From Apostichopus japonicus (lineage: Eukaryota > Echinodermata > Holothuroidea > Aspidochirotida > Stichopodidae): a DNA stretch of 64,000 nt. Both the position numbers and the translations under genes were made by a program. A model generated the notes under the pieces. That model saw only the letters and a list, made by a program, of their open reading frames with translations. It was not told the DNA's origin and ran no database searches. Location: assembly GCF_037975245.1 (NCBI RefSeq), contig NC_092577.1, positions 1 to 64,000 on the forward strand. The letters run 5' to 3'. Shown here in pieces: positions 23,263-63,410 of the stretch (position 1 is the first letter of the stretch; each line of letters starts with the position of its first letter).

Positions 23263-24241
23263 CAGGCACAAGTTTTAAAATTATCAAGATTAGAAAACAA
23301 TGGCCAACTCCCATATCCATACCTTAATTGCTCTGTTACTAAGACTAAAAAAAAATGTTAAAACTTGAGGCAGTTTTCAATGAAGGAGGAGGCAATAATA
23401 TATGATGTGGATGGAAACTGCATAGAAAGATATTTTTTTTCACAAGTACCGTATCCAGTTTTGGTAACACTTGTTATCGCTCTTCCATAGGCTACATGAC
23501 TGTATGTATGGCATCTAAAATGGTATCCTTTATTTATGTTCATTTAAGCCCCCAGTTCAAGCCTCTACACATCCATGTTGACCATATTTATACCTTTGAC
23601 AAATTATTTTTTACCTTATAAAAAGGCATTTAAAGAAGAGGGACTGAGTTTCTGTCCTGTTTTATTGAGACTTTGGATCCTAATTGTACCCCACTTTTTC
23701 ACATAGGTTCACTTGAAAAGCCTGCAACATCGGAACACAGATTTAAAATGCATTTTAATCTTATTTATGTTAAAGCCAGTTTACGGTTGAAGTTAATGCA
23801 TAATCGGAGTTAACTGATGTCTTTCATGGAACCATTTAGGATCAAGGATTCACTTCAAAACACAACAACTTGAGACCTAACATGTGTTAGGTATACTGAG
23901 CTCTACCATGTCAGATCTAAGGAAGTGGTAGAGCATCTATGAATGGGTGACCAATCTCAGCAATGCAATTCATAGGTGTCAAGGGGGAGTGGGGGTGGTC
24001 ACCCACAAAACAATATAATCGTGTTGAAACCATCATTTTACCCCCCCCATGAAAAAGTATCAATAGACCCCCCAAAAAAAAGTTGCAGTTGAAATCAACT
24101 CAAATATGTCACCCTATCTCTTATCAGGAGTTGAGAAAATGCCATAATTATTCCAAAATAGTTAGGAAAATTTGACCCAAATATAGTGAATTTATTGTCA
24201 GAATTAATAAAGTCCACCAGAAATTGGGAATTTGTTGACAA
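23263..24241. other. non-coding stretch left of the CACTA-type element
   Basis: No gene, repeat array or RNA is recognised. A C-rich run lies at 24040-24048 and an A-run at 24073-24080. Confidence 0.5.
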
Positions 24242-24540
24242 CCCCTCTACAAATTTAAGTGTGCTAGTTGCGCGCAGCTTATGCGCCGAGAGCGAACATA
24301 CAACAACGTTCGTAACTGGCGCACAAAAGTACGCAACCTGCGCGCAACCTGCGCACAACCCACGCGCTCCAAGGGAAGCGTGCGCTTTGTCTTAGCGTGC
24401 GCACACTAAGACGGAGCGCGCGCGTGCCATCTTAGCAGGCGCACGCTTCGTATTAGCGTGCACGTGCTTCGTCTTTGCACGTGCACGCTTGATGTTAGCG
24501 CGCCAGTTCTTGGTTAAGCGTGCAAAGAGGACTTAAATAC
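24242..24540. repeat. left terminal inverted repeat and CpG-rich subterminal repeats
   Basis: After the tip CCCCTCTACAAAT comes about 270 bases dense in 'gcgtgcgc', 'ttagcgtgc', 'cctgcgcgcaacc' and 'gcacgcttcgt' words in both orientations. These are repeated at irregular spacing and are strikingly CpG-rich. A direct repeat, 'gaagcaaacaatttggactt', follows at about 24556 and 24589. Subterminal repeats of this kind are where CACTA-type binding proteins act. Confidence 0.8.
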
Positions 24541-25422
24541 TTTTGCTGACTTCTGAAGCAAACAATTTGGACTTAGAAAAAAATGTGAAGCAAACAATTT
24601 GGACTTTGAAAAAATTGCTTATATGTCTTTGTGCGCGAGTAGCTCTTGGACTTGAACCATGTGGTAGACTTGTGTAAGGTGGTGCGGTGCGCATACAAAC
24701 TTCTGGGTCAGTTTCATGGGAACCCGAAGGCCCTTAGGGGTTCTTGAAACAATTCTGTAGGGTATATTGAACAGTATTTAAAAGCATGAGAAATGTTACA
24801 GTACAATTAGGAACGCAGGCTTTCAGTGAAATGTTACTTCAAATGATCTTCAATGAAATCAAGATGCTTGTGCACCTTGGGGAATAGGAGGAAAACAGGG
24901 CAATATTTTTCAGAGCCTGACAAACAATTTCTAATGTAAGTTAACAACACCTTTAGAAATAAGATACCTCATTACAAAGAACATGTAGTGAAATGAAATT
25001 TATTTACACTCATCATACAGTACATGTAAGTAATGTATCACAGGCTAACAAATAGAAAGAATATCAAAATTGAGGGAGAAACCCATCTTTTGTTTAGAAG
25101 CCAAAATAAGTATGACACATGTAATGTCAATTGTGAATTCATGGTTAAAACCAGTAAGGGTTTTTCTTGCACTACACCATTAACTTGAGGCTTATGCTCC
25201 ATTGTTGATAAAGAACTACAATTTGGAATTTACTGTAATTACGTATATCAAGTACTACCACACCTCTTTCTCCACTCAATCCCCCAGCCTCAAAATGTAT
25301 ACCAATTCCTTTTGCCCTAATATGAGCAGAAAGCTGAATATATACACAGCATTTATTCATGTCTCACAATGATTTCCTTAAGAAAACTAAACATTAAAAT
25401 TGGTAACCTGAAGGCACTCATT

Positions 25423-25428
25423 TTTATT
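25423..25428 (-). terminator. polyadenylation signal of the transposase gene
   Basis: TTTATT on the plus strand reads AATAAA on the minus strand, about 52 bases past the transposase stop codon. It is placed plausibly as the poly(A) signal, with no direct evidence of use. Confidence 0.5.
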
Positions 25429-25479
25429 TGCAGTACACCCTGAGTATTAGTCTACCAGCAAAAGATATTATTCCACCCT

Positions 25480-28400
25480 TTAGTCACTCTCTAGTAAATT
25501 TGGAGCTTGTGCAATGAAAGACTCTTCTGGATTTTCAAACTGCATGAAAATACATAGCTCAGCAATATACTTTACAGGTATGATATGAAAAAAAACATCA
25601 CCTTGATTTTTAACCATCAAAAGATGGTCTAATTTTAATGTTGTTCTGCAATTTGCAGCAATGCTTTCAGCCACAGAGTTCATGTGCTTTATCACAGCGA
25701 GATAATCTGAAGAGCACATGCATTTCGCAGAGCAACTGCAGCATTTCGTACATTTTAAAAAGTACTTTATCTGCCCAAAAAATGTAACTCCCTCTTTAAG
25801 GTATCTTACAGTGTATGAATTTCTTTTGGTCACAAGTTTGTAATCACTGCTGTAAAGTAACATGTCATTCAGCTGAAGACGAAGAAATTTGTAAAAAAGC
25901 TGTGGTTTATAACCAATACATTCAACTATCAATGGCAACAGATCTGACTCAGGGTTACATTGCAAAAGACGACCAACCACTGAAATGAAGCCATCTATCA
26001 CCTCTGTCCTTGAGGCAGGTTTTTTCTTAAGAGATAGTTTTTTAACATACTTCAATGTATCTGCCCCAACAGACACATTTTGCAATAACTCTGGAACCTT
26101 CAGCAAAGAACACAAATTATTTGCTATTTGCAAATGTGGCTTTTTTGTGCCCTGCACCATGTGCAATAATTTCCCATTGATATCTTCATATGCAAAGCAT
26201 GAATACACCCACAGTGGACCAAGATTTCTCACTACACCTGGAAGATGGAGAAGCCCATGAACCACAGAAAGGCAGTACCTGTCTCCATATAATGTCCCAA
26301 ACAAGTAACAAAACTGGATAAGTAAACTTTCACAGTATTTAATATCATTGACAGAAATACTGTCACTATTCAAAATGACAACTGCCTCTACTAGTAATGC
26401 ATAATGCTCAAAAAATATGTCATTCATTAAACCCTTTAGAGCTGGTAAAGAGTAATAAAACAGCCATGCCCTATATTCTGATGCCTTCCAATAACCCAAA
26501 TGATCTTTAATACTCCTTGGAATTCGGGAAATGAAATGTGGAGGCTTTATCTTGGTAAGTCGCATATCAATATTGTCAAGCAGTTTGGTTAAAGAAAATA
26601 GTTCTTTGGAATGAGATGTGTCGAACCATAAGTGTAACAATTTCTTAGATACTCCAAGCAGAACTGTGTGCATATAATCAATAGCCATTCCATCAGCAAG
26701 ATTCATACCAAATGAACTTAGAAAAGTAGGCCCTTTGATGCCATTAATGGGCTTTTTCATTTGCATGGTATGCACTTTCATAGCATCACTCAACATTTTT
26801 TCATGAGACCGTTTAGGACCAAGGGGATTAGTCATGCAAAAAGGATATGTCCACACCGAGCCTTTTCCTGTTGATGTTGAACAGCCTTTTTGTAAGCAAT
26901 GAGAACACCCAAAAGCTCCATTAAACTGCACCATATTTAACATTACAGCTCTTGCAGGAAGGTCACATGTACCGCAGAGAACCACAGCTTTAACTATGAT
27001 AATTTCCTTTTTGTCCTGAGCATAAACTTCTACACCATCTTGAAGTTCTTTAATGGAAGCAAGGAATGGCTTCAGAAAAGTGCCCACAGCCGGTTTTGAA
27101 CCAAGCCACAATCCAGCGTAAATCAAATTCTCTTTTAGGAACCGTCGTTTATGCGGCAACTCATTGATTGAAAAAAAAAGAGGCCAAAGGCTGACCTTTG
27201 ATGATTTGAAGATGGGACATCCATCTGTATACCACATAAGAGATATGTTTCTTGGTTCATGTAAAAGTTTTCCGGGAGCAAAAAGACGTTTGTACTGCTC
27301 TCCATCATAAATATCCTCAATATTGTCACTGTTTTTCTTCTTTCTGTTGAATCTATGCTGCAAGTCATTATAAAATCCCTGCCTTTTCATTAAGGTGCAA
27401 ATTTGATTAACAATCGGTATTTCTATAAAGTAGGATATTCCACTGTTCTCCGAGACATCACTGCTGCATACTGGGCACCTAACATTATCAGAGGAGCTAA
27501 GTAAATAATTACAAAAATTGCAGAACTTGTGGAATTTCAAAGGATTTTTTAGAGTTCCATAAAATTTGTTAAACATATGAAGTGTTGTCTTGCAGATATT
27601 TGGCTTTTGGCAGTGCATTGAAATTAGCACAAGCAAATCAACCAGTGCAACACCAGTAATGCTATGGCTGCTTGAAAACATCAGAATCATCAACATACTT
27701 TCTGCCAAAGTTAGTGGAGCACCTTCATAAAGTGGTTTACTTCCTTCATCTTCTGCTTCATCATGGATAGATGGGGATTCCTTGCAGTCAAACCAGTCAT
27801 CTTCAAGGTCGAACTCCTCTACACTGAGTGGGTCACACCAGTCATCACTTTCATAAATGCCTCCTACCTCTTTAATATTTGCCAGGTGGAGGTTATCATC
27901 ATCCAGATCCCTGTGATGAGTACAGGAAAAAAAAGTTATGGTTCAAATATAACCTGTTTATGTGTGAACAACTATGTTAGAGTACAGCCGAGAACCTTGC
28001 ATTGTTTTAGTGAATGGCAAGGAAACATGAGCTTCTTGCATGTTTCTATGATGAAACATTTTTCCATGATTTAAGTGTACTTCTAAAAGTAAAGATGACT
28101 AGAAAAGTACATATAGAGGAAATCCCCAAACCCTTGACCAATTTGACACAGCATCGCACCAACTTTAACTCTATTTTCTATTCTATTTCATTTGATCAAG
28201 GATTAAACTGCAACACTTACTAGCATCATACATGTCAAATTAATAATACTTGATAGATTTCACCCAACCTGCCTGGGCATATTAAAACCCACACAAGCTC
28301 TGATCAGTACCATATATCTTCATTCTTGTTAAAGAAACCACATAAGCCCAGGTTGGTTAATAAAAAAATCCAGGCTGTTTGGGCAAATTGTATTTTGGGA

Positions 28401-29122
28401 ATAAGACAGCTGGCCAGTTGGTCCTTACCTATTTCCCTTACGACTACTGTATGTGAGTCTACCTAAAAAGTATCACTAATTTGGGAAGCCTAGTTATACT
28501 ATAAGCCTAGGTCTTATTACCTTTTTATTCCATCCGTTGAGGAGCCATCAGACAGAGGTAGGCCCATGAAGTGGTCAGATTCGGAGAAATTCAGATTATT
28601 ACTAGATCCTTGTTCCACAGTATGAATGCATTCAAGTTCAGATGACAAATTCTGAGTACCCATTTTATCCTCATTGAGTTCAGGTTTTAAATGGGTTGTA
28701 AGGGAAGGTTGGCTAGGTTCAAATTGTTTGTTTGTTGCTTGGCCTATGTATTGCGTAATTTGGAGGCTAGTACTAGTAGCAGTAGTAGTACTACCATGGG
28801 CATCATGTTCAACTTCAACCTCTCTTGTTGAAACGAAGTCAACTTGCCCTGGCTGAATTTCACTTACTGTGAATTCATCATCTTCTAATTCAGCTGTCCT
28901 AACACCTAAACTCGCATTAATCTCCACTTGCTTGTCCATACGCCACCGTGTGGTTCTCGAGACAGTTTGTTTTGATGAACTATTAATATCACTAGGCTTA
29001 GGCCTTGTTCGACAGCGTGACTGAACGTTAGGCTGACGTTGTGTACGCCGCCGCTTATAAGCTCTGTTGTCCTGTGTAGGCAAGTAAGGACTTGTTGGAT
29101 CAACTTCCAGTAAGTGAGACAT
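25480..29122 (-). CDS. CACTA/EnSpm (Tnp2-like) transposase, two exons
   Basis: Exon 1 is 29122-28521 (ATG start, donor AAAAAG|GTAATA). Exon 2 is 27910-25480 (acceptor CATCACAG). The join keeps frame and gives about 1010 residues. Exon 1 encodes a basic, Ser/Gln/Thr-rich N terminus. Exon 2 begins with an acidic stretch (DLDDDN), then a conserved block PLYEGAPLTLAESMLMIL, and a CxxC...CxxC zinc-binding pair (about residues 331-349). The catalytic-type landmarks follow: YTDGCPIF (D about 430) with SLWPLFF, CDLPARA (D about 517) with a GCSHC pair, DYMHTVLLGV (D about 612), and GPLWVYSCFAYEDINGKL (E about 776). These match the DDE/D transposases of CMC elements. The protein should cut and join the element ends in the nucleus. 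A Met at 27708 is internal, because the frame is open upstream to the acceptor. No frameshift or internal stop is seen. Confidence 0.9.
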
Positions 29123-30185
29123 TATGAATATGAGGTGGTTTCGAAGTCACCATAACACAACTGCGACAGTGAGTTCATCTGTGCAAAACCTACGAATGAT
29201 CACCATTTTCCCCCTGATGAAACAACAGGCGGGCTCGGTAGTGCTGACGTTTAAAAATACTTTCACCGGATGGTCGCCGCGCTGTAATAGTTTACTAAGT
29301 ATGTTAGATTAACGTTGGCAACTTGGCACTGTATACTAAATTACTACTTGAGAACACTGCTCGTTAGTGTAGATCAGTGCTTGAAAATAGCAATTAACAT
29401 ATCCCGATAATGGTCAGTTGTACGGAACAATGTACGATACAACTAAAATGCTTCCACATCGTGAAAATGAATTTTCTTAAATACGCATCGTTAGATCCTG
29501 TTACCAATACAAGTTTTCAAAGATAAGCTCATGCGACTACTTTTGAACCGAATTACTGCTCTATAAACATTTTGACCACCTTAACCGTGTTATTACCTGT
29601 TTTGACAGCTTACGTGATTCTTTCTCCTCCGTGGAAGCACTTTGCCAAACTATAGATGTTGCGTAAGTCGATATATATGCAAATATTATGGACTGGTAGA
29701 TACTAGCCAATCAGCGTAGAACAAACGATCACCGCGCTTTAATTTTGAACCTAAGTTAGAAGTACCGACGTTACAGTACGCTGTCAACAAGTTCTTGCCG
29801 AAAAGTCCATATCTTTCCCTTGACATCTACTGTAACTTATTTCAATCAGCCATTGCGAAAGTGTTTAAATTTCTTTTTTTTTTATGCCTTGTATTGATTC
29901 CGCTCAACTTTAATTAGCTGATAGTTTATCTCTCAGTTTCGTTTGCATGAACGTAAGGTTTCTAGCTCTTCCATAGCCTAACCTACTAGCCTAACGTCCT
30001 GTAGTTCTACAGCCTCGACTTTGCAAACCAGTTGTTCGTTTTCTTTGTATCGGAAGCAGGATATTCCGTTGGATTATCGTCAAAATACATTCTTTGTCAA
30101 CCTGTTGGAGATTGCAGCTTTGCGAATTATCCAGGGAATTTTAACAATATCAAGACATTTATATTTGCAAGTTAGGGCCTTGATA
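29123..30185. promoter_or_regulatory. shared divergent promoter region of the two transposon genes
   Basis: About 1.06 kb separates the start codons of the transposase (-) and the BEN gene (+), which point away from each other. No canonical TATA box or other core element can be assigned with confidence. Both promoters must lie here or in unseen 5' exons. A shared region would coordinate expression of the two proteins, which is inference from the arrangement. Confidence 0.5.
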
Positions 30186-33100
30186 ATGGATGCGACTGCC
30201 TTGATGCTTTTGTCTCAGACAGCGGCAGAAAATGCAAAAAGTCCTAAAGTCGTTTCAACGAAACTCCAAACTGTTCGGCAAAGATGCCTTATTTACTGGG
30301 TTGACGATCGTTTAGTCAGCATCGAACCTTTATCTTCAGTGGTTGAAAAAAATCAAGTGAAAGAAGGAGCTGTTTGTAAAATCAAGTGGAAAGGAAAGGG
30401 ACCATATCTCGGAAAGCTTATCAAAATCAGTGGTGAGTACTATTGCGATAGGCTAACAAGTAACATTAACTTAAGAGTAACACTAAATTTACAGCTTAGG
30501 CTAAGCAATTGTAGCTTAGGCTACCTTACTAATACTACTAGGCCTAGGCTAGTACTACAGTAGTAACTATTTAAACTTAAAGCCTAGGCCTAGGCCTATG
30601 CTGTATTGGCTCTAAATATGCCAGATATTCAAAAGTGGTTAGCCTAGGCCTAGCCTACCTGTGATCAAAATTCTTTATTGGCCGTGGCTATTCTTACGAC
30701 TAGTCGTAACAATTATTTATAAACTATTCTTACAACAAAGGCGAATTAGGCTACACATAACACAACATTTGATAGCCTATAGCCCTCAACGCAGATGATT
30801 AGAAGGCTGCAAAATTGCAGTGCAATGGAATCAGTAAATAGGCTACTTTATATTTATGTTGGTTTCCTCTGACGTTACAAGTACAAGGAAGCCTAGGCCA
30901 CATGCTTATTGGCGTCAAGAAATAAATTTAAAGCGTTCTAAAGAATGTTTACTTAGTTATGGAGTCATCATTTCAAAAGCATGGTCCTTCTTTACCAGGT
31001 CCAAACAAGACAAATGTTGGTACTGTATGCATTAATATACAAAGCAAAGTAATTTTTCAGAAAGTTGCTCATTGTCTTGAAAAATCCTGTACAATTTGAA
31101 ATCAAATTGAAATCCTGTACAAATTGATTAGCCTAGTTTTCCCTAGGAACTTTGTGGTGTGTAAAAATTAAAACCTTTCTGTGAATAGTGTTAATACGAC
31201 AAATATGTCGACTGTACACTTTAAATATGTCACGCATCATTAATGTTCATTAATTTATTTCTTGCTACTTTTCGAGTCTACAGTAGTTTAACTGTACTTC
31301 GTCCCTTTAATGCATGTCATTTATCTGACAACCAAAGTCACCAAACCTTACCTGCAGGCTACAGTCTATACAGTAATTGCCTACTGTATGACATCAGTCT
31401 TCTCTGTACTTTTTCAATACAATAAATCATCATGCCCTGCTCTTTTAAAACCCCAATGATTCCCCCCCCCCCTTATGTCTGGGGCTGCATATAACCATAC
31501 ATGTACCATGTTTCTGTAATCCTATTGTTTAAAAAAAATTATTAGGTAGAGTTCTCATACTATAGAGGTAAGCAACTGTGATCATCATTGTTTTCTGTAC
31601 AATCATTCACAGCTGACTCTAAAGTATTACGTGAAGAGCAGTTTAAACTTGAAGAGGCCCTCTTTAAAGTAACGGATCCCCAAGAAGGCCAATCATCTCC
31701 ACGTCAGGATGAGTGTATAGCTTCTACGAAAGGGAGAAAGAGGACAAAGCCCAGGAAACTACTTGAGGCAACAGATGTGGAGGAAGAGGAAACGGCTGAC
31801 AAAGCTTTACTGCCACCGCCCACGAAAAAAGCAAAGGAGACCAAGGCAAAGATGTCAAAACTTTCCGCCAAAGTTGATGCCCAGAGGGCTGTCTTTGAAC
31901 AATATTTGAAGGAAAGCCCCACTTATACATCAACTTCCACAGGAGAACCTGAGCCTGCAATAGATATTCCTATTCCAGAACCAATTATTAGCAACACTGA
32001 CAATGCAATGTCTGCCCAGTTTACTTCATTCACAGCCCTACTGAATGATTCAGGAGATGAAGGAAACTGTCTTGAAGGAGTCTCACGGGCTGTAGAAGTT
32101 CTTCACGATGATTCTAATCTTTTTAATGACTCTACAAACCTGGATGAAATTCATTTCTTGAGACAGGAAGTAGACAGACTTCTGTGGGTAATTGAAACAA
32201 ATGACCAGGAAATTCAAGATTTGCGACAAAGGCTCAGTGAAGGTTGTGACTGCTACAACTCACCAGCACCAGAGAAGACAGTAATGAATGAAATCAGTAA
32301 GTTTATTTTAGCTGTTTTTGGACCAGAATATTATTTTTTTCTGGCTATATTTTTACACCATATTATTATTTCCAGGACAAGGACCACAAAAACCCAGACT
32401 TTTGCCGGTTTCCCTCTTTTCCTTATTGTGAGAAAACCTTGTTTAATCTATTGGACTTCGCCTAGAAAAATGTAAATTTTAACCAACATTTCAGGTTTCA
32501 ATTGGTACATACTGTAGGTAATGATTGCTAATTGTCTCATTTACCCTCATGAATGGATATGATAGAAAAATGAGTTCTTTTATAATCTCCTGTTCATTAG
32601 ATGTGACTCCAAGGAAGATTAAATTCCTCAGTGACCTGACAAAGACTTTGTCCTGTATGGTCACAGAGACTGCACCACCATTGATGACTACGCCACCATC
32701 GTTAACTACGCCACCATCGTTGACTACGCCATCATTTTCAACCATACCTGAAACGAGTACACTGGGGGCAACAACAAGTAGCTCCGTCACAGAAGTAGGT
32801 GACACATCAATGTCACCATCACCATCTGTTGATCATGATGAGGTGTGTTCTTTTGTAGCTTTGTTTCTATTTTGAGCTGTGCGGTAACAAATTTATCCTG
32901 CTTACAGTCCTAGCATATCAAAATAAAAGTGATCTATGAAAATACTTGAAATTCAACTGTAAGTGTATGAATCACCTTGGAAAGGCAAACCCTACCTTGT
33001 AAGTACAGGTACATATGAATAAGCAACAAAAGCTTGTGTCTTAATCAAAAAAAGAAAAATGTTTGTAAAAAATTCAGGTAGAGATTGCACAACTCGTCCC

Positions 33101-34261
33101 AGCCTGTAATAATATCACAAAGTTTGCACACTGCAGGTTCTGGAAAGTCAGGGAAACTAAAATAGGAATTTCAAGGTCTGGAAAGTAAGGGAATATGTAT
33201 AATTTTTCCAAAGGTCATGGAAAAGTCAGGGAATCTAAAGAAACCATGTATTTTTTCCCTGATATTCTCAATCTAAAATTTGTTTATAATGTAAAAAAAA
33301 ACAGAAGTGGGAAAACAAAAACACATTTGAAGAATATTTCATTTGAGGTCCTTGAAAGTCATGGAAAAGTCATAGAAATTTTTGCTGTTGGAATGGGTAC
33401 AAACTTTGTTTCAACTTCACATTTTTTTCAAGTCTTCCTGACAGCAACCCATTTGCCCCCCCCCCACTTTTCCATTCCCCTTACTAATGAAAACAAATTG
33501 ACAGTGATAAATATTTAGTCATTTTCTACATTTCATTGTCTCTTTGCAGAAAGTTGAATTAGTGAAAGGCACTGGTGTTTATGTCACTGTGCCAGAACGA
33601 ACCAGTATTGCACTAAAAGGGAGAAAAGGTTTAGGTGTAATGTTGAGGAAAATTCTAGAAGTCCTCTTTTCCTTTGATGAGCTTCGTCGTGGCTGTGCTG
33701 TTGGAGGAAGACCAAAGGCTTGCAACAAGCAGTCTGCTGACGTGAGTGTTCCGCTTGATCCCAAACGCTTGAGTGCAGCCAAAGGTGAGTTACTGTTAAA
33801 AGGTTTACTTTTTCTATTTATCAAGAAAAAAAGCTTGCAAAAGAGAGCATATATTTTAAGGTAGGTGTGTGCACCAAAAAAAGGAGTTGAGTGTTTCAAA
33901 TTGTTTGCTGTTTGCATTCTACTTTGCATTTTGGTGATTGACAATTTATTAAAGGGATATTTTGGTGGCATGCAATGTGCACTTACAGAAAAGACAAAAA
34001 TTTATAAACCAGAAATTTTGTACCTACAGAAATTTTTTTTCAGTGCACAACTGACACTTTTTCATGTGTTAAATATTATTTACATCAATTAGATAGGTTT
34101 TTACCCATTTCTTTGCAGCATATGTCCTGTGCTTTTGTCAAAAGAAGGGTCTGCCAGCACCGACAGAGACTGACATCAATGCCATAGTAAACAGCAAGTG
34201 CGTCACTGTTCGTCGTAGCTTCAAGCAGAAGTTTTCCAGTTTGACAGACAAGCGGCAGTAA
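30186..34261 (+). CDS. BEN-domain protein encoded within the CACTA-type element, five exons
   Basis: The exons are 30186-30432, 31613-32296, 32601-32842, 33550-33784 and 34119-34261. All introns are GT-AG, and the phases fit to give 516 residues. The ATG at 30186 is the first in frame and has A at -3 and G at +4. Residues ~30-82 (CLIYWVDDRL...KIKWKGKGPYLGKLIKI) resemble the chromo/Tudor-like N-terminal module found in invertebrate BEN proteins. Exon 2 is charged, with nuclear-signal-like KGRKRTKPRK and PTKKAKETKAK and a coiled-coil segment (HFLRQEVDRLLWVIETND). Exon 3 is Thr/Pro-rich with repeated TTPPSL. Exons 4-5 (residues 392-516) form a BEN domain: LRKILEVLFSFDEL, then VPLDPKRLSAA, then INAIVNSKCVTVRRSFK. 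BEN domains bind DNA and chromatin partners. The likely role is binding the element's subterminal repeats or controlling its expression, which is inference. Confidence 0.8.
30597..30672. repeat. short interspersed segment in BEN intron 1
   Basis: 'ctgtattggctctaaatatg', 'ccagatattcaaa' and 'gatcaaaattctt' match, in the same order and orientation, text at 15925-15982 next to the tandem duplication. This is a small shared repeat of unknown origin inside the intron. Confidence 0.6.
33075..33400. repeat. GTCATGGAAAAGTCA-type repeat in BEN intron 3
   Basis: Phrases such as 'ggtctggaaagt', 'aaaagtcagggaa', 'ggtcatggaaaagtcaggg' and 'cttgaaagtcatggaaaag' recur four to five times. This is simple internally repeated text like a dispersed repeat seen in many animal genomes. 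It is intronic (32843-33549) and non-coding. Confidence 0.6.
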
Positions 34262-34810
34262 CAATTCAAAACTTCCCTGGGGTTGGGTATATATTGTATG
34301 CTAACTTTATAGGTCACTTAAAACTTCCTTGTATGATAGGTACTCAACAGCCTTTGCAACTCTATGTAATATACTCCATATTTAGCCTTGCCATTTTTAA
34401 AATGACTTTAAACCTTAAAGTATTTCAATTATATTCTTAAGCTGCAACTGCACATTACCTAAAAATCTCTCAGTATTCCATTTTCCCCCTTGCCATTTTT
34501 TATACCTTGAAAACTTTTGGTAGTTTAGGTTACACCAAGCAATCTGAATTGAGTCATTTTAGTTAAAAATCAATGATTTCTTTCACCTGCCATTTTTCTG
34601 CTGCACAATTAGATATTTTTTTTATATTGCATCAATCTTTTTTTATACTAACTATGATATCTTGCCAGTTTTTTTTTTATATTCATTTTAATTAAACTGT
34701 TAACCAAAACTACATTAGTTCATTACTCTTATAAAGTTGCATGACACTGTTGACTTTATGAACAAAGTCTATGTTCACAGTTTTAAGCCTTGTTAGTTTC
34801 TCCAACCTTT

Positions 34811-34816
34811 AATAAA
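34811..34816 (+). terminator. candidate polyadenylation signal of the BEN gene
   Basis: AATAAA lies 550 bases after the BEN stop codon, in an AT-rich 3' region still inside the transposon. Its use is not shown. Confidence 0.4.
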
Positions 34817-35109
34817 AATATTAAATCACTTAATTGTATTAATATTCTATCCGTCAACTGCCAATGCTTACACCCTAAACAATTCTACTCATCAGCAGTA
34901 TTCTCACCAAGATCTTTTCTTTTCATTAAAATACCTTTTAATATTAATCTGTGCACATGAGACATGTTGTCTCATTTTACTTCACAATACATTTTATTTT
35001 AGACATTTAAATTGAAAAATTTGTTTTCTCTTTTCTGCTTTGGAGCTATATGTGCTTATATAGCTGCATGCACCCTTTATCTTCTTGTGTGGTTCTATAT
35101 TCAACAACA

Positions 35110-35531
35110 AACCGCAGCGCGCTCAAGTCGCTCGCAGCGCGCTCAAGTAGCGGGCACAGCTTGCTCAAGTAGCGTGCATTGTTTCTATGCTTCTGGCGCG
35201 CTACAGTGCGCAGCTTGCGTGCGACACCCTACTTTTGCTAGCGTACATTGTTTCAAATCGCACGCGATCCGTTTGCCTTTCGCGCGCTTAAAGCTGGACC
35301 GCGCGGCACGCTGTAGCGCGCAGCTTGCGTGCGACTTTTGCTAGCGTATATAGTTTCAAATCGCCCTCGATCCGTTTGCGTTTCGCGCGCGGCACGCTGT
35401 AGCGCGCAGCTTGCGTGCGACGCGCTACTTTTGCTAGCGTACAATGTTTCAAATTGCACGCGAACCGTTTGCATTTTGCGCACTCTTCTAAAATCGCACG
35501 CGTGCAGACATGGGAAATATTTGTAGAGGGG
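35110..35531. repeat. right terminal inverted repeat and CpG-rich subterminal repeats
   Basis: About three tandem units of roughly 85-110 bases share 'cgctgtagcgcgcagcttgc', 'ttttgctagcgta', 'gtttcaaatcgcacgcga' and 'ccgtttgc', ending at the tip complementary to CCCCTCTACAAAT. They are preceded by shorter 'gcgcgctcaagtagcg' copies from 35116. The CpG density is far above the flanks. Core words (agcgtgc, cgcacgc) are shared with the left subterminal region. Confidence 0.85.
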
Positions 35532-36778
35532 AATAAACATACATTAAACTGTATGCCAAACATTTTCCAGTAGGTTCTCCAGCCAGACCAAATATTTCCA
35601 GCCGACCAAATATTTGGAGATTGGGGGCATTTGGGGGTCGAGTCTGATGAGCATTCCCATCACTTAACATGTCTGGCAGCAGCCATTCATGATGCCTGGG
35701 ACTATGACAAACCAAAGTTTCCATTGTTTGAGAATGGGGCATATTGCAAAACCACCCTAAAGATCTTCACCTCCTTGGTCATTTCAGTAAAATGAAAAGA
35801 AAGTTAGATTTTATACTTGTTTCACCCTATATTTTTCTCTAATTCTTGTACTTAATTATAAGGTGTATTTTTATTGGGACTTTGTTAGACTTTCGTCGTC
35901 ATAAGACCCTCACCGGACATTAATAACTGTTGAGTCGATCGTGTTGATCTAGTATTTAAGTGTTTATATCAATCAAAAACTGGATTGGTTTGTTAATAAC
36001 AAATTAATCTCTAAATGAGGAAATTGAATTCTTTCCATGTAGATACCAAATTTTTAATGAACTTGTTTTGTAAGGGGGTGGCATTATTGCCTAATTTGCA
36101 GGGGAGGCAATCCTACAATTACTGGAAAGGAGTGTATTAATTAATGTATTTATAGGAGGGCAGGATGAGTTATTGGTGAGGTGCAGGAGGAGGTGAACTA
36201 TGTTTACCAATGCCTTGTATGTAGCAAGCTGCAAGAGTCCCCCCTGCATGTCCAGCTTATGAGACAAGCAATCCCGCCCAGTAGTAGGCTCATACAGCCT
36301 CCTTCTGTTACTAAAACCCCCACTATCCTTTATCTTTCATTCCTCAGCCTATTAAAACTCATAATATTAAAATTAAACGTTAGGTTTTCTTTCTTACCTT
36401 TTCTGTATTGCCTGCTAGGCAGGGTCAAGGGAAATGTAACATTTGGGTTGAAATGTACAGAACTTGGTCAAATGTGGTATGGCTAAGATAGTTAAGATAG
36501 TTAATGAATTATATTTTACCACTGTGCTTGCATAACAAAAATATAATAATAATATACTAATTTAATAAAAAGTTATAGACATATATAATACATGCCAATT
36601 TCACTTGTGTTGTGCCCCACATTATTGAATTATAGGGATATTTTTAAAACCAGATTTTTCCTAGTACACAATCTATATACAATATCTGTCATGGTCATTA
36701 TTATGCGTACCACAGGAATAATTCCCCTTCAATGTTTATAACTTGACAATTAGCAGTAATTGCTAAATACCTGATTTG
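35532..36778. other. non-coding stretch right of the CACTA-type element
   Basis: No gene, RNA or structured repeat is recognised. The text 'gaccaaatatttccagcc' and 'gaccaaatatttggagatt' at 35587-35622 forms a small local duplication. The frame at 36181-36486 is random-looking. Confidence 0.5.
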
Positions 36779-56566: not shown

Positions 56567-59500
56567 GTTCAAGCTCGTATTAGGCATGAAATGCAAGACA
56601 GGCTAGAAAGGAATCAAAAACTGTCATGGGAGGATCGGACTCGTCTTCCGTACCTTATGGCGTCAACTCTGGAAACATTGAGGAAAGCTTCATTTTCTTC
56701 ACTGAATGCACCTCATCGCACCATTCGTGACACACGGTAAGTTTTTATAGTATGACTTGAGCTCCACGAATGAATATATTGCGCGCATCTCAGCGCTCAT
56801 ACATGACGTACGGTAAAGTTTGTATAGTGTGACTTGGGTTCGGTGAATATACCGCACGGTAATTTCATTCACTGATCCTCGAACTCTCGTTATTGTGCAT
56901 TCAAAAACCAATACCTGGTAACAAAGGAAATGGAATTGCGATGCAAGAGTAGAAACATCCACGTTGGTTATGATATGTCTAAATCTATCCGTACCGAGAG
57001 ACGCTAGGTAATCTCCGAACATATGATTCCACTCATCTGTGTGCGTACCAAGACACGTTAGGTGATCTTCTAAGATATGATTCCACTCATCTGTGTGCGT
57101 ACCAATACACGTAAGGTAATCTTCTAAGATATGATTCCACTCACCTGTGTGCGTACCAAGACACGTTAGGTGATCTTCTAAGCTATGATTCCACTCATCT
57201 GTGTTCATACCAAGACACGTTAGGTAATCTTCTAAGATATGATTCCACTCATCTGTGTGCGTACCAAGACACGTTAGGTAATCTTCTAAGATATGATTCC
57301 ACTCATCTGTGTGCGTACCAATACACGTTAGGTAATCTTCTAAGATATAATTCCACTTATCTGTGTGTGTACCAAGACACGTTAGGTGATCTTCTAATAT
57401 ATGATTCCACTCATCTGTGTGCGTACCAATACACGTTAGGTAATCTTCTAAGATATGATTCCACTCACCTGTGTGCGTACCAATACACGTTAGGTAATCT
57501 TCTAAGATATAATTCCACTTATCTGTGTGTGTACCAAGACACGTTAGGTAATCTTCTAATATATGATTCCACTCATCTGTGTGCGTACCAAGACACGTTA
57601 GGTAATCTTCTAAGATATGATTCCACTCATCTGTGTGCGTACCAAGACACGTTAGGTAATCTTCTAAGATATAATTCCACTTATCTGTGTGTGTACCAAG
57701 ACACGTTAGGTAATCTTCTAATATATGATTCCACTCATCTGTGTGCGTACCAAGACACGTTAGGTAATCTTCTAAGATATGATTCCACTCAGCTGTGTGC
57801 GTACCAAGACACGTTAGGTAATCTTCTAAGATATGATTCCACTCATCTGTGTGTGTACCAAGACACGTTAGGTAATCTTCTAAGATATGATTCCACTCAT
57901 CTGTGTGCGTCCCAATACACGCTAGGTAATCTTCTAAGATATGATTCCACTCATCTGTGTGCGTACCAAGAGACGTTAGGTAATCTTCTAATATATTATT
58001 GAACTCGTCTGTGTGCGTTCCAATACACGTTAGGTAATTTTTAATGATATGATTCCACTCATCTGTGTGCGTACCAATACACGTTAGGTAATATTCTAAG
58101 ATATGATTCCACTCATCTGTGTGCGTACCAAGACACGTTAGGTAATCTTCTAAGATATGATTCCACTCATCTGTGTGCGTACCAATACACGTTAGGTAAT
58201 CTTCTAAGATATGATTCCACTCATCTGTGTGCGTACCAAGACACGTTAGGTAATCTTCTAAGATATGATTCCACTCATCTGTGTGCGTACCAAGACACGT
58301 TAGGTAATCTTCTAAGATATGATTCCACTCATCTGTGTGCGTACCAATACACGTTAGGTAATCTTCTAAGATATATTATTGAACTCATCTGTGTATCGTA
58401 GTGATAATAATCAATGCACCTTGCTCCGTCTGTATGGTAGTGATAATAATCATTGCACCTTATTCCGACTGTATAGTTTGTCATAATAATCAATGCACCT
58501 TGCTCCGTCTGTATGGTAGTGATAATAATCAATGCACCTTGCTCCGTCTGCATGGTAGTGATAATAATCATTGCACCTTATTCCGACTGTAGTTTGTCAT
58601 AATAATCAATGCACCTTGCTCCGTCTGTATGGTAGTGATAATAATCAATGCACCTTGCTCCGTCTGTATGGTAGTGATAATAATCATTGCACCTTATTCC
58701 GACTGTAGTTTGTCATAATAATCAATGCACCTTGCTCCGTCTGTATGGTAGTGATAATAATCAATGCACCTTGCTCCGTCTGTATGGTAGTGATAATAAT
58801 CAATGCACCTTGCTCCGTCTGTATGGTAGTGATAATAATAAATGCACCTTATTCCGACTGTAGTTTGTCATAATAATCAATGCACCTTGCTCCGTCTGTA
58901 TGGTAGTGATAATAATCAATGCACCTTGCTCCGTCTGTATGGTAGTGATAATAATCATTGCACCTTATTCCGACTGTAGTTTGTCATAATAATCAATGCA
59001 CCTTGCTCCGTCTGTATGGTAGTGATAATAATCAATGCACCTTGCTCCGTCTGTATGGTAGTGATAATAATCAATGCACCTTGCTCCGTCTGTATGGTAG
59101 TGATAATAATAAATGCACCTTATTCCGACTGTAGTTTGTCATAATAATCAATGCACCTTGCTCCGTCTGATGTATCGTAGTGGTAATGTTCAAAGCTCTG
59201 CCACATCTAATTCGTGGTAATAATAATCAAAATATATTACTCAGGTAGACTACTTTTTATCACTTTCGTTTACAGTTTGAGTGATTATGATATCGAAAGA
59301 AACACAACAGTCTTCACAAACTTATGGTGGATTCACAACAATCCAGTCACCTGGGAGAGACCTGGCATCTTCTATCCAGGTAAAACCAACATGTGACTTG
59401 CAACGCAATCTAGTAAAGGCTACTTAGTCAGTGTAGACAAATTGTCGTGTAATCCCAAGAGATTTTAAACCCGTTTGAATCGATTAAAATCATTGACCAG

Positions 59501-61646
59501 CTAATAAGATCTCTCAGCTACGTCACATTGCTTGTACGGAGGGTACCTATAAAGGCAAACAGCATAAACTCCTCCTGCGATATAACACACATTCCGGATT
59601 CATTTTGAAATATTTCGAGTTCGAACAACCACATGTCGCGGGTGATCTGTGGCCTTTCATCCTTGATTCACTAATCGCTTTCATTCTTCGAGACGAATCC
59701 GACTCAAATTTACTTTGAATCCTAGAATGATTCTGTTCAGATTCCGAACCATAAACAAAACATTTATTTGGAGTACGCTCATGTACGATCAAAACCGTGA
59801 CATATAATCAAAGCTAAATGTTTTAAGTGTAATGTTACCTGCTATAGAAGTGGCATCCAAGTAGTTATTACTGTACTGAAAGTGGCATCAAAATACTTAT
59901 AACTGTACTGAAAGTGGCATCCAAGTACTTATTACTGTACTGAAAGTGGCATCCAAGTAGTTATTACTGTACTGAAAGTGGCATCCAAGTACTTATTACT
60001 GTACTGAAAGTGGCATCCAAGTACTTATTACTGTACTGAAAGTGGCATCCAAGTACTTATTACTGTACTGAAAGTGGCATCCAAGTATTTCTTACTGTAC
60101 TGAAAGTGGCATCCAAGTACTTATTACTGTACTGAAAGTGGCATCCAAGTACTTATTACTGTACTGAAAGTGGCATCCAAGTACTTATTACTGTACTGAA
60201 AGTGGCATCCAAGTACTTATTACTGTACTGAAAGTGGCATCCAAGTATTTCTTACTGTACTGAAAGTGGCATCCAAGTACTTATTACTGTACTGAAAGTG
60301 GCATCCAAGTACTTATTACTGTACTGAAAGTGGCATCCAAGTATTTCTTACGGTACTGAAAGTGGCATCCAAGTACTTCTTACTGTACTGAAAGTGGCAT
60401 CCAAGTAATTCTTACTGTACTGAAAGTGGCATCCAAGTACGTATTACTGTACTGAACTGAAAGTGGTATCCAAGTATGTACTGATGTACTGAAAGAGGGA
60501 TGCAACTATGCAACTTCATGCTCATGTACTGAATGTTACGATTGCAACTACTTAGCCTTCTCAGATGTTTTGCACTACGTCGGTTAGAAATAAATTGTAA
60601 TTGTGTGTTACAGTTATTGAATGCAACATGACAGCAAAATGTTTCTCATTTCACAGTAGAAGACCTCTCAATTGTATATATGTGTAATGAAACATACCAG
60701 GTTAGTTAAAGATTACGTTATGATTCGATACTTAAGTTTACAGACATATTCTCAACCTTTGCTTAAAAATTTCATTCGGTTGACAGAGCATTTTCTAGAT
60801 ACAGATGGACAAGTCTTCACACCAAAAAGTTTTATGCCATTCTCACTGGGAACTCGATTCTGTCTTGGAGAGAAATTGGCAAAGATGCAGGTAATTTGCT
60901 GCTCTCGTAGGTAATACGTTTAAAATATTCTTAAATCTTCATACTTTTTATATTATTATATGTCTTTTTAAAAACTTTTTTTTTAAAACTATTTTATAAA
61001 GCATTATTAATGTATTTATGAATTCTTAAATTTTCATACTTTTTTATATTATTATGTCTTATCAGAGGGCCTCGTGGAAGATTAGCTACTGCTAAACGAG
61101 CTACCCTCTTAAAATAAAGTTGAAATAAAAAAATAAAAAAATATGTGTGATACTTATATTATCGAAATAAAGTTGGTAGAACCCACTACGCATTCGAATG
61201 TTCAAATCATTGCTCGATTAATGTTAGCGACCTCTACACAACACCACAGATGGTGTACACGAATTAGTTATCAGACACAGGTGTCTCAATTGAGAGAGCA
61301 TGAAGTGCCCATATTTAAGCCTCAGTCTTCTGCTGTTGGTCTGAGATCACTTAAGGTGAGAGATGTGTAACTGATGATAACACCTTGATTTTTAATAGAA
61401 ACATAGATATCTTGCACCTGCCTACATATTTGCAATGACTCGTTAGGCTCCTAGTCCAACTATCTTATGTAGTACAATTTGCTTACTTAACAGATGTTTT
61501 TGTTTCTTGGCCGAATTCTGCAGTCATTTCGATTGGAGCCGGACATGGATGGTATTGCTCCTCCTACAGAACCCTCATCAAATGACACAATTCGCATACT
61601 CGGTCCGTACAAGATTTCTCTCGTAAGGGACGATCTAATAATATAA
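56567..61646 (+). CDS. cytochrome P450, CYP2-like, C-terminal exons (partial)
   Basis: Four exons join in frame: 56567-56736, 59276-59379, 60787-60890 and 61494-61646 (stop TAA). All junctions are GT-AG. They encode about 176 residues, the last third of a microsomal P450 monooxygenase. The K-helix ExxR is ETLR, in LPYLMASTLETLRKAS. The following TVFTNLWWIHNNP and WERPGIFYPEHF match the CYP2 pattern before the PERF motif, here PEHF. The heme loop is FSLGTRFCLGE, with the cysteine ligand and the CxG signature complete. KMQMFLFLGRILQSF is the L-helix and final exon start typical of the CYP2 clan. No disabling change is seen in these exons. The membrane anchor, oxygen-binding I-helix and other 5' exons were not found upstream, so they are far away, outside the window, or lost. 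Introns 1 and 2 carry minisatellites. Confidence 0.93.
56991..58392. repeat. 54-bp minisatellite in P450 intron 1 (~26 copies)
   Basis: The unit contains 'gattccactcatctgtgtgc', 'gtaccaagacacgttagg' and 'taatcttctaagatat'. The phase repeats every 54 bases (57091 to 57145). Variants include aagacac/aatacac and gatatga/gatataa. Because 54 is divisible by three, long frames open on both strands (56699-57208 minus, 57367-58002 plus). These are not genes. Confidence 0.97.
58395..59175. repeat. 39/37-bp minisatellite with higher-order structure in P450 intron 1
   Basis: The basic unit is 39 bases: 'tagtgataataatcaatgc', 'accttgctccgtctgtatgg'. A second type carries 'accttattccgactgtagtt' and 'tgtcataataatcaatgc' (37 bases). 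The types follow a repeating order of two or three of the first then one of the second, giving compound units of about 115 and 154 bases. It starts directly after the 54-bp array. Confidence 0.95.
59845..60475. repeat. 32-bp minisatellite in P450 intron 2 (~20 copies)
   Basis: The unit is 'actgaaagtggcatccaag' plus 'tacttattactgt' (32 bases; agtggcat at 59881 and 59913). Copies are nearly identical, with 'tatttctt' and 'taattctt' variants. There are no unique spacers, so it is a tandem array and not a CRISPR. Confidence 0.97.
61062..61141 (+). mobile_element. retroelement 3' tail-like remnant in P450 intron 3
   Basis: 'agagggcctcgtggaagatt', a small hairpin (tagctactgctaaacgagcta), then 'ccctcttaaaataaagttg' and an AAATAAAA tail match the form of LINE 3' ends common in animal genomes. 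No coding region is attached. The family is uncertain. Confidence 0.45.
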
Positions 61647-61689: not shown

Positions 61690-63410
61690 AATAGTTACGT
61701 ATCCTACATATTATGGTAATATACTTCTCTATGTATCTAAAACTAACGGACGCCAAATTTTCATCTGAAAGTAATGGACTTCAATATTCATCTAAAGGTA
61801 TTGGACTTCACTCTGTATCTCAAAGAAATGGACTTCTATTTCTACTTTGTATTTAATGATAATAAACTTCACTCTCCACCTAATGGTAATCCGCTTCAAC
61901 TCTGTATTTAAAGCTAACTGACTTCACTCAACATCCAATGCATATTGACTTCTACTCTGTATTTAAAAGTTGTAGACTTCACTCTCTATCTAATGGTTAT
62001 GGATTCTTACTCTGTATTTAAAGGTAATATACTTCCCTCTCTATCTAATGGTAATCCACTTCTACTCTGTATTTAATTGTTTACTTCTAAAGATGACGGA
62101 CTTCAATATTCTTCTATAGGTAATGGACTTCAATGTGCATATAATGGTAATGGACTTTACTCTGTAATAGTTAACGACTTTACTCTCCATATAACGGGAC
62201 TGACTTCACTTTCAATCCAATGGAAACGGACTTCACTTTCAATCTAATGGTTATGGACTTTACTTTCTATCTAATGGTGACGGATTTCACTTTCAATCTA
62301 GTGGTAATGGATTTCACTTTCAATCTAATGGTAATGGACTTCACTTTCAATCTAATAGTAATGGACTTTACTTTCAATCTAATCGTAATGGACTTCACTT
62401 TCAATATAATGGTAATGGACTTCACTTTCAATCTAATGGTAATGGACTTCACTTTCAATCTAATAGTTATGGACTTTACTTTCAATCTAATCGTAATGGA
62501 CCTCACTTTCAATTCAATGGTAATGGACTTCACTTTCAATCTAATGGTAATGGACTTCACTTTCAATCTAATCGTAATGGACTTCACTTTCAATATAATG
62601 GTAATGGACTTCACTTTCAATCTAATGGTAATGTAACTTCACTTTCAATATAATGGTAATGGACTTCACTTTCAATCTAATGGTAATGTAACTTCACTTT
62701 CAATCTAATGGTAATGGACTTCACTTTCAATCTAATGGTAATGGACTTCACTTTCAATCTAATGGTAATGGACTTCACTTTCAATCTAATGGTAATGGAC
62801 TTCACTTTCAATCTAATGGTAATGGACTTCACTTTCAATCTAATCGTAATGTAACTTCACTTTCAATCTAATGGTAATGGACTTCACTTTCAATCTAATG
62901 GTAATGGACTTCACTTTCAATCTAATGGTAATGGACTTCACTTTCAATCTAATGGTAATGGACTTCACTTTCAATCTAATGGTAATGGACTTCACTTTCA
63001 ATCTAATGGTAACGGGCTTCACTTTCAATCTAATGGTAATGGACTTCACTTTCAATCTAATGGTAATGGACTTTACTTTCAATCTAAAGGTAATGGACTT
63101 CACTTTCAATCTAATGGTAATGGACTTTACTTTCAATCTAATGGTAATGGACCTCACTTTCAATCTAATGGTAATGGACTTCACTTTCAATCTAATGGTA
63201 ACGGACTTCACTTTCAATCTAATGGTAATGGACTTCACTTTCAATCTAATGGTAACGGACTTCACTTTCAATCTAATGGTAATGGACTTCACTTTCAATC
63301 TAATGGTAATGGACTTCACTTTCAATCTAATGGTAATGGACTTCACTTTCAATCTAATGGTAATGTAACTTCACTTTCAATCTAATGGTAATGGACTTCA
63401 CTGTGTATCT
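61690..63410. repeat. 27-bp minisatellite immediately 3' of the P450 gene (~44 regular copies)
   Basis: The unit is 'aatggtaatggacttcac' plus 'tttcaatct' (27 bases). It is regular from about 62205 to 63400, with increasingly diverged relatives ('taatggacttcactct') back to about 61690. Several units read 'aatgtaacttc' with an extra base and shift the frame. Since 27 is divisible by three, mirror-image frames open on both strands (62220-62636, 62871-63368 plus; 62267-62620, 62840-63352 minus). These are repeat artefacts. Confidence 0.96.

Follow-up and report, generated by a model that had tools for sequence, protein, structure and literature searches.

The first 64,000 nt of contig NC_092577.1 of the holothurian Apostichopus japonicus (forward strand, hereafter the window) hold a complete DNA transposon of 11,290 bp (24242-35531), in which a Tnp2-type transposase gene stands head to head with a gene for a BEN-domain protein. 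BEN exons recur beside related transposases in the same genome, and a BEN protein as the standing partner of the window's transposase is strongly supported. By comparison with plant elements we consider it probable that this is a two-gene transposon of the CMC group (EnSpm-Mirage-Chapaev) whose BEN protein would be a partner subunit binding AGCGYGC/CpG-rich ends, as TnpA does in plants. The genome searched comprises 671.6 Mb in 35 contigs, the window's own being labelled C17, and genome-wide counts are lower bounds.

Recurrent pairing of BEN and transposase genes

Transposase loci were collected with the window transposase, Pfam Transposase_21 and the transposase of another element at C17:25.0 Mb, and merged into 81. 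The 118 BEN loci came from searches with the window BEN protein (11 rows), Pfam BEN (65 of 66 rows, one duplicate being omitted) and the BEN exon of the C17:25.0-Mb element (42 of 150 rows, weaker and duplicate ones being omitted from the tally); the tally also took in 33 rows for the N-terminal module of the BEN protein (N-module), a part of those matched. Within 12 kb we count 20 BEN/Tnp2 pairs, against 0.56 on average and never more than 4 over 1000 random shifts in a null that used the largest coordinate seen per contig as its extent. Six pairs are of the window's own family, all divergent (a seventh family locus, at C17:24.61 Mb, was left out of the family in the tally; it is unpaired and the pair counts do not change), and the other 14 are made up of 10 divergent, 2 convergent and 2 tandem pairs. 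A search with the BEN exon of the element at C17:34.0 Mb adds C15:15.43 Mb as an eleventh divergent pair outside the family.

The preliminary description of this DNA had proposed a search for BEN genes with this N-module head to head with Tnp2-type transposases. Run in the window's genome, it returned a divergent BEN within 12 kb at 11 of the 28 diverged loci found with the window transposase, and the N-module at two more. N-modules divergent to a transposase lie at C17:15.31 and 15.44 Mb, the latter also having a BEN match on its convergent side. The diverged transposases that share the divergent arrangement are 33-54% identical to the window's, and several of these families keep the N-module too. 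BEN is also divergent at greater distance at C17:22.11 Mb (22 kb, with transposase matches split over ~14 kb) and C16:30.99 Mb (16 kb, weak BEN match). Five BEN exons are 95-100% identical to the C17:25.0-Mb query (itself included); four have a same-type transposase within 8 kb, and for the other one the distance is ~21 kb. The paired BEN exon on C3 was found with the window BEN at E=3e-21, and those at C11, C17:20.1 and C17:34.0 Mb reach 19.7-22.5 bits with Pfam BEN. The 27 loci found by Pfam Transposase_21 alone gave no divergent BEN pair within 12 kb.

Insertion, copies and integrity

The 13-bp inverted tips of the preliminary description, CCCCTCTACAAAT, were found again, exact on both sides and with no other exact match in the window (Table 1). 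When the two flanks of the window's element are joined over a single AA, 12 other genomic places match across the junction, 11 at 98% identity or more, and two junction-spanning matches are identical over 235 bases. These places are unoccupied sites inside a dispersed repeat, and they therefore show both the insertion in the window and its 2-bp duplication.

The exact tip occurs 27 times in the genome and a reversed control pattern 15 times. Only four inward-facing pairs stand ~11-12 kb apart, and on comparison all four are the same element: the window copy, C16:1363575-1374862, C17:518986-530239 and C12:20988289-21000584, with duplications AA, CA, TA and AT. One more copy, at C18:14263381-14274616, has a left tip with a single mismatch and an AG duplication, so that every two-ended gene-bearing copy (5/5) carries a 2-bp target-site duplication (TSD), each a different one. 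Most lone exact tips are taken as chance, since six of the eight loci opened (L002-L006 and L008) bear no resemblance to the element. The tip-like CCCTTCTACACAT at C17:16.79 and C17:24.67 Mb was considered as the tips of another family; a genome-wide scan yielded no flanking pair, and we ascribe it to chance.

Two further copies are partial. The C2 copy retains its left end together with the closing part of the transposase and BEN exons 4 and 5; a right end was looked for and not found. The copy at C17:24.61-24.62 Mb (L054, L055) is decayed, with many stops and, piece by piece, ~90-97% DNA identity; in the stretch examined it is cut short within the transposase gene and has no BEN match. BEN exons are present in six of the seven transposase-bearing copies seen, and this, with the diverged head-to-head families, strongly supports that part of the earlier suggestion which makes the BEN protein a standing partner of the transposase. 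As findings that would speak against the pairing, the preliminary description had named copies lacking the BEN gene and a BEN gene that is a single-copy host gene. The latter does not apply; the six BEN-bearing family copies are spread over five contigs. Copies without BEN do exist, namely the one at C17:24.61-24.62 Mb and a 571-bp derivative (C14:11472149-11472719, L095) with both element ends and neither gene; both are damaged and for that reason are not counted as refuting. In the C14 derivative the last base of the right tip differs and no TSD is recognisable. We take it as an old, eroded non-autonomous derivative, which even so fits the ends being cis-acting parts.

Across 11.3 kb the window copy is set apart from that on C16 by 4 substitutions plus 12 gap positions, and both genes are stop-free in three copies (window, C16 and C17:519 kb); those on C12 and C18 have decayed. 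When the window copy is compared with that at C17:519 kb, substitutions amount to 41/6663 aligned noncoding sites (0.62%), 13/3030 in the transposase (0.43%, with one codon gapped) and 1/1551 in the BEN gene (0.06%). The window element has recently moved and is an autonomous-looking, presumably cut-and-paste transposon.

The two proteins and the element ends

Both genes were re-derived as divergent spliced models with GT/AG sites and no internal stop, in agreement with the earlier lengths of 1010 and 516 amino acids (aa); their exons are predicted. The transposase matches Pfam Transposase_21 (PF02992) at E=3.3e-11 and 43.2 bits (cut-off 28.6), which upholds its Tnp2-type assignment. Among 15 aligned transposases of the genome, some of them near-copies of each other, D430, D517, C536, C539 and D612 are invariant (15/15), while E776 is found in 14/14, H752 in 14/15 and H756 in 13/14. 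The resulting D, D, C(2)C, H(3)H, E pattern is of the D, D, C(2)C, H(3-4)H, E kind described for EnSpm, Transib and RAG1 (PMC12730594). Modelled with AlphaFold2 on nine sequences taken from this genome, exon 2 yields a structure of only partial confidence: mean pLDDT is 54.5, with 264 of the 809 residues reaching 70 and 428 staying below 50. The top ten Foldseek entries for it are nevertheless RAG or BbRAGL (E 4e-8 to 8e-6), the next standing at E=0.24; the catalytic fold thus models like RAG1. Relatives of the transposase in viral contigs were sought as well, with 53 pattern matches and none confirmed.

In the second protein the BEN domain is C-terminal and split by an intron. Pfam alone is indecisive for it (16.7 bits for the whole protein and 20.0 for its C-terminal piece, under the PF10523 cut-off of 23.2), and the BEN identity is carried by phmmer and by a profile of its relatives: the C-terminal piece matches human NACC1 (8yzs) at E=8.4e-6 over residues 2-114 of 124 aa, and a five-relative profile matches BEN at E=2.1e-8. 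A profile of eight BEN exons, seven of them Tnp2-linked, matches BEND6 (4e-11), NACC1 (3e-6) and Insv (1e-5), and the BEN profiles match Bsg25A weakly. The BEN exon of the C17:25.0-Mb element reaches 24.8 bits, above the Pfam PF10523 cut-off. As judged from these similarities the second protein is a real BEN protein, as first described, with human NACC1 as its best solved relative. No RAG2-like partner appears among its Pfam matches up to E=1, where only BEN and RR_TM4-6 are found, both weak. The exon-1 N-module is common to other families (49% and 54% in two of them); because its model (mean pLDDT 60) has no Foldseek match at E of 0.001 or below, we claim for it only a small all-beta fold. 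The heptad stretch has L, I or V at 7 of 8 heptad positions.

CpG-rich subterminal repeats had been reported at both ends and are indeed there, as direct repeats within stretches of high observed/expected CpG ratio (o/e; Table 1); elsewhere in the element this ratio is 0.06-0.38, and its two flanks have 0.34 and 0.44. Counted on both strands, with two palindromic sites scored twice, the motif AGCGYGC has 19 occurrences in the ends, none in the interior and none in 52.7 kb of flank, and none of 2000 order-1 Markov versions of the ends reached 19. Other copies hold 19 (C16), 17 (C17:519 kb) and, on C12, 14 in the ends plus 1 inside.

Table 1. Features of the transposon in the window (positions from the first nucleotide of the window).
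Feature	Position	Strand	Basis
Target-site duplication AA, left copy	24240..24241	.	flank sequence; unoccupied sites with single AA
Left 13-bp terminal inverted repeat, CCCCTCTACAAAT	24242..24254	+	tip search of window
Left subterminal CpG-rich array, CpG o/e 1.51; 8 AGCGYGC in the first 300 bp of the element	24255..24535	.	CpG and motif counts
Transposase exon 2 and stop codon; Tnp2/Transposase_21 domain, conserved D430, D517, E776	25480..27910	-	gene model, Pfam, alignment
Transposase exon 1	28521..29122	-	re-derived gene model
Region between the divergent genes, CpG o/e 1.11, probable bidirectional promoter	29123..30185	.	CpG count
BEN exon 1: N-module, predicted small all-beta fold (low confidence)	30186..30432	+	gene model, structure model
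BEN exon 2: basic stretch and heptad-repeat stretch (aa 261-292)	31613..32296	+	gene model, protein sequence
BEN exon 3: Thr/Ser/Pro-rich linker	32601..32842	+	gene model, protein sequence
BEN exon 4: BEN domain, first part	33550..33784	+	gene model, Pfam, phmmer
BEN exon 5: BEN domain end and stop codon	34119..34261	+	gene model, phmmer
Right subterminal CpG-rich array, CpG o/e 1.69; 94-bp and 22-bp direct repeats; 11 AGCGYGC in the last 430 bp of the element	35106..35518	.	repeat, CpG and motif counts
Right 13-bp terminal inverted repeat	35519..35531	-	tip search of window
Target-site duplication AA, right copy	35532..35533	.	flank sequence; unoccupied sites

Proposed mechanism and alternatives

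In the scheme that we find probable, the transposase with its RAG1-like fold would cut at the CCCC tips and insert with 2-bp duplications. By analogy with plant TnpA, the BEN protein, acting as an oligomer, would bind the AGCGYGC/CpG arrays 130-420 bp inside the tips by way of its C-terminal BEN domain and heptad stretch, bring the ends together and load the transposase; its binding to the subterminal repeats we only infer. BANP and BEND3 are described as selecting unmethylated CpG motifs, and BANP as needing oligomers to select unmethylated CGCG DNA (PMC11472053); the heptad stretch and CpG arrays of the window's element raise the same question for its own BEN protein. Were that binding sensitive to CpG methylation, movement might, speculatively, be limited to unmethylated copies.

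Several observations weigh against a BEN partner subunit at CpG-rich ends. Neither BEN nor the N-module lies divergently within 12 kb at 15 of the 28 diverged loci or at any of the 46 that the other two transposase searches alone returned: either BEN is absent from these elements or the search overlooked it, and with 11 of 28 and 0 of 46 paired with BEN, the pairing marks a part of the Tnp2 transposases, within reach of our searches. By themselves, no more than 6 of the 11 paired BEN exons reach the Pfam cut-off. A CpG-rich stretch 3′ of the transposase open reading frame (ORF) is conspicuous in few of 13 other loci (C11, C17:34.0, C15 and C17:15.31, with 0.96-1.5 kb inspected at each), so the arrays are not shown to be general. 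Finally, NACC1, the nearest solved human relative, is reported to prefer CATG over CpG motifs (PMC11472053).

A partner subunit has also to be weighed against other roles for the BEN gene. It might be the element's chromatin regulator (an anti-silencing, promoter or insulator factor at the CpG-rich ends or promoter), unneeded for cut-and-paste, as would suit the known BEN proteins, which are chromatin factors and in the case of BANP and BEND3 select unmethylated CpG (PMC11472053), and the CpG-rich ends and intergenic stretch kept in a CpG-poor neighbourhood. The conserved head-to-head pairing and the motif arrays beside the tips fit an end-assembling subunit, and we hold a purely regulatory role to be unlikely; both roles may coexist, as they do for TNPA (PMC2613891). 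Considerably less probable is that host BEN genes were repeatedly captured by Tnp2 elements, the window copy being a passenger with little role in transposition. Transposon and host BENs do interleave in trees (see below) and different element lineages resemble different human BEN proteins, but the same divergent arrangement, in several families with the same N-module, recurs beside transposases as far apart as those described above, and the BEN gene of the window differs from that of C17:519 kb by its one substitution against 13 in the transposase and 41 in noncoding sites, small counts as these are. Chance neighbours (a host BEN gene beside a transposase remnant) or an assembly artefact, for which we found no supporting point, are already refuted by six BEN-bearing copies on five contigs (five of them with TSDs), the unoccupied sites and the shift null, and can be given hardly any weight.

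Relation to host BEN genes

The preliminary description had also raised the idea that host BEN genes arose from, or were captured by, such elements. Trees were built with 19 chosen rows, in which long branches may meet, and again with 10 after long branches and others had been dropped; the hosts are represented by short segments of five solved chains. Human NACC1 falls together with the window's family (support 92/96 with 19 rows, 95/96 with 10) and BEND6 with the C17:34.0-Mb element (95/97 and 84/85; phmmer to BEND6 E=2.7e-6). In the 10-row tree a single clade is rejected for the three host BENs (p-AU 0.0037) and for the six transposon BENs (p-AU 0.0012), in tests set after the first tree had been seen and on a short domain with long branches. 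Transposon and host labels do not cluster, label shuffles being as low in 303 and 290 of 500 cases (19 rows) and in 500 of 500 (10 rows). The C17:25.0-Mb element has a putative match of 45% over 71 aa to vertebrate BEND5; BEND5 was not met among the solved structures.

The simplest reading is that hosts and transposons have exchanged BEN genes repeatedly; their BENs interleave, and the trees suggest more than one exchange, in one direction or the other; to that extent the earlier idea gains support. That the BEN gene keeps its place and orientation next to the transposase speaks for an old association with several domestications, capture being the less favoured course. We tentatively raise the possibility, to which we give somewhat less than even weight, that animal BEN factors, at least those of the NACC1 and BEND6 lineages and perhaps that of BEND5, arose in more than one domestication from subunits that served Tnp2 transposons as DNA-binding partners, their taste in motifs being a relic of end binding. 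Such a history would liken them to RAG1/RAG2 with their origin from a RAG-like transposon, would give a class of insulator and transcription factors a transposon origin and would turn known BEN-DNA structures into models for transposon end recognition.

Other BEN-bearing repeats and window features

BEN exons also occur apart from the pairs. One, mostly an ORF of 119 aa, is repeated genome-wide on many contigs at the same or nearly the same Pfam score (C2:18945875, C8:26328146, C13:7592900, C19:24214294 and others; L087-L089), with no listed Tnp2 transposase within 25 kb, and is perhaps a different BEN-carrying mobile element. Another 34 rows (C7:10913676, C23:6854656, C1:16912412 and others), ~46-54% identical to the BEN exon of the C17:25.0-Mb element and most with one internal stop, together with ~100 shorter, weaker matches to the same exon, are a decayed repeat family carrying a BEN exon. 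Two exons close to the window's (58% identity), at C16:11778806 (L043) and C19:15253247 (L086), have no listed transposase nearby and are either solo remnants or host genes. The N-module alone comes in runs, often ~150-250 kb apart and several near contig ends (C12:14.8-17.3 Mb, C19:31.0-32.3 Mb, C20:0.3-1.4 Mb, C14:0.2-0.7 Mb, C4:29.0-29.5 Mb; L094), perhaps as a fragment inside very large repeats.

Elsewhere in the window there are four minisatellites (56990-58394, 58392-59169, 59848-60456 and 62119-63402, with units of 54, 39, 32 and 27 bp), the first and last with long open frames on both strands.

Comparison with known systems

The preliminary description had called this a CACTA/EnSpm-type element. 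The Tnp2/Transposase_21 domain and the subterminal arrays near both ends stand; the tips are CCCCTCTACAAAT and the TSD has 2 bp, where CACTA elements are defined by CACTA...TAGTG termini and a 3-bp TSD (PMC4158355). CMC/CMCT elements are described with TSDs of 2-5 bp and, in most cases, 5′-CA..TG-3′ termini (PMC12730594); our transposase pattern and TSD agree with this, and the termini, CC..GG here, differ in a feature that is not strictly defining. Because of its tips and TSD, and by its transposase, we place the element, as EnSpm-like, in the wider CMC/CMCT group and do not regard it as a canonical CACTA. For the BEN family, membership rests on similarity to solved BEN structures over the domain, the Pfam score being too low.

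Plant CACTA elements (En/Spm with TnpA and TnpD, Tam1, Tgmt*) likewise join a Tnp2-type catalytic protein to a second protein and to subterminal arrays, and Tgmt* also has 13-bp tips (PMC2613891). They differ by CACTA tips and a 3-bp TSD as against CCCCT tips and 2 bp (PMC4158355, PMC2613891). The En/Spm proteins are alternatively spliced from overlapping transcripts, whereas the window element has two separate divergent genes, and its partner protein, unlike that of plant CACTA, carries a BEN domain. The second plant protein is reported to bind DNA, TNPA at subterminal repeats and with TNPA and TNPD both required, and TNPA and TNP1 are little alike even mutually (PMC2613891). The main text of the CMC/CMCT paper does not contain the word BEN (PMC12730594). 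RAGL transposons share a RAG1-like catalytic fold and a two-gene layout of transposase plus second protein, but their RAG1-like and RAG2-like genes are described as convergent (PMC7204232), whereas those of the window are divergent and the second protein is BEN. The chromatin factors NACC1, BEND6, BEND5, Insv and BANP share the BEN domain, the best solved match being NACC1 for the window protein and BEND6 for that of the C17:34.0-Mb element; NACC1 has an N-terminal BTB domain (PMC7764960), while the transposon protein has its own N-module and lies inside a mobile element.

Our literature search returned no description of a BEN/Tnp2 transposon pairing, and an earlier mention in the founding BEN paper or in Repbase is possible. 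To our knowledge there is no defined animal counterpart of the plant TnpA subunit, and the window element is a candidate for that counterpart: its copies include intact ones that moved recently, unoccupied sites are at hand and its ends carry a repeated motif.

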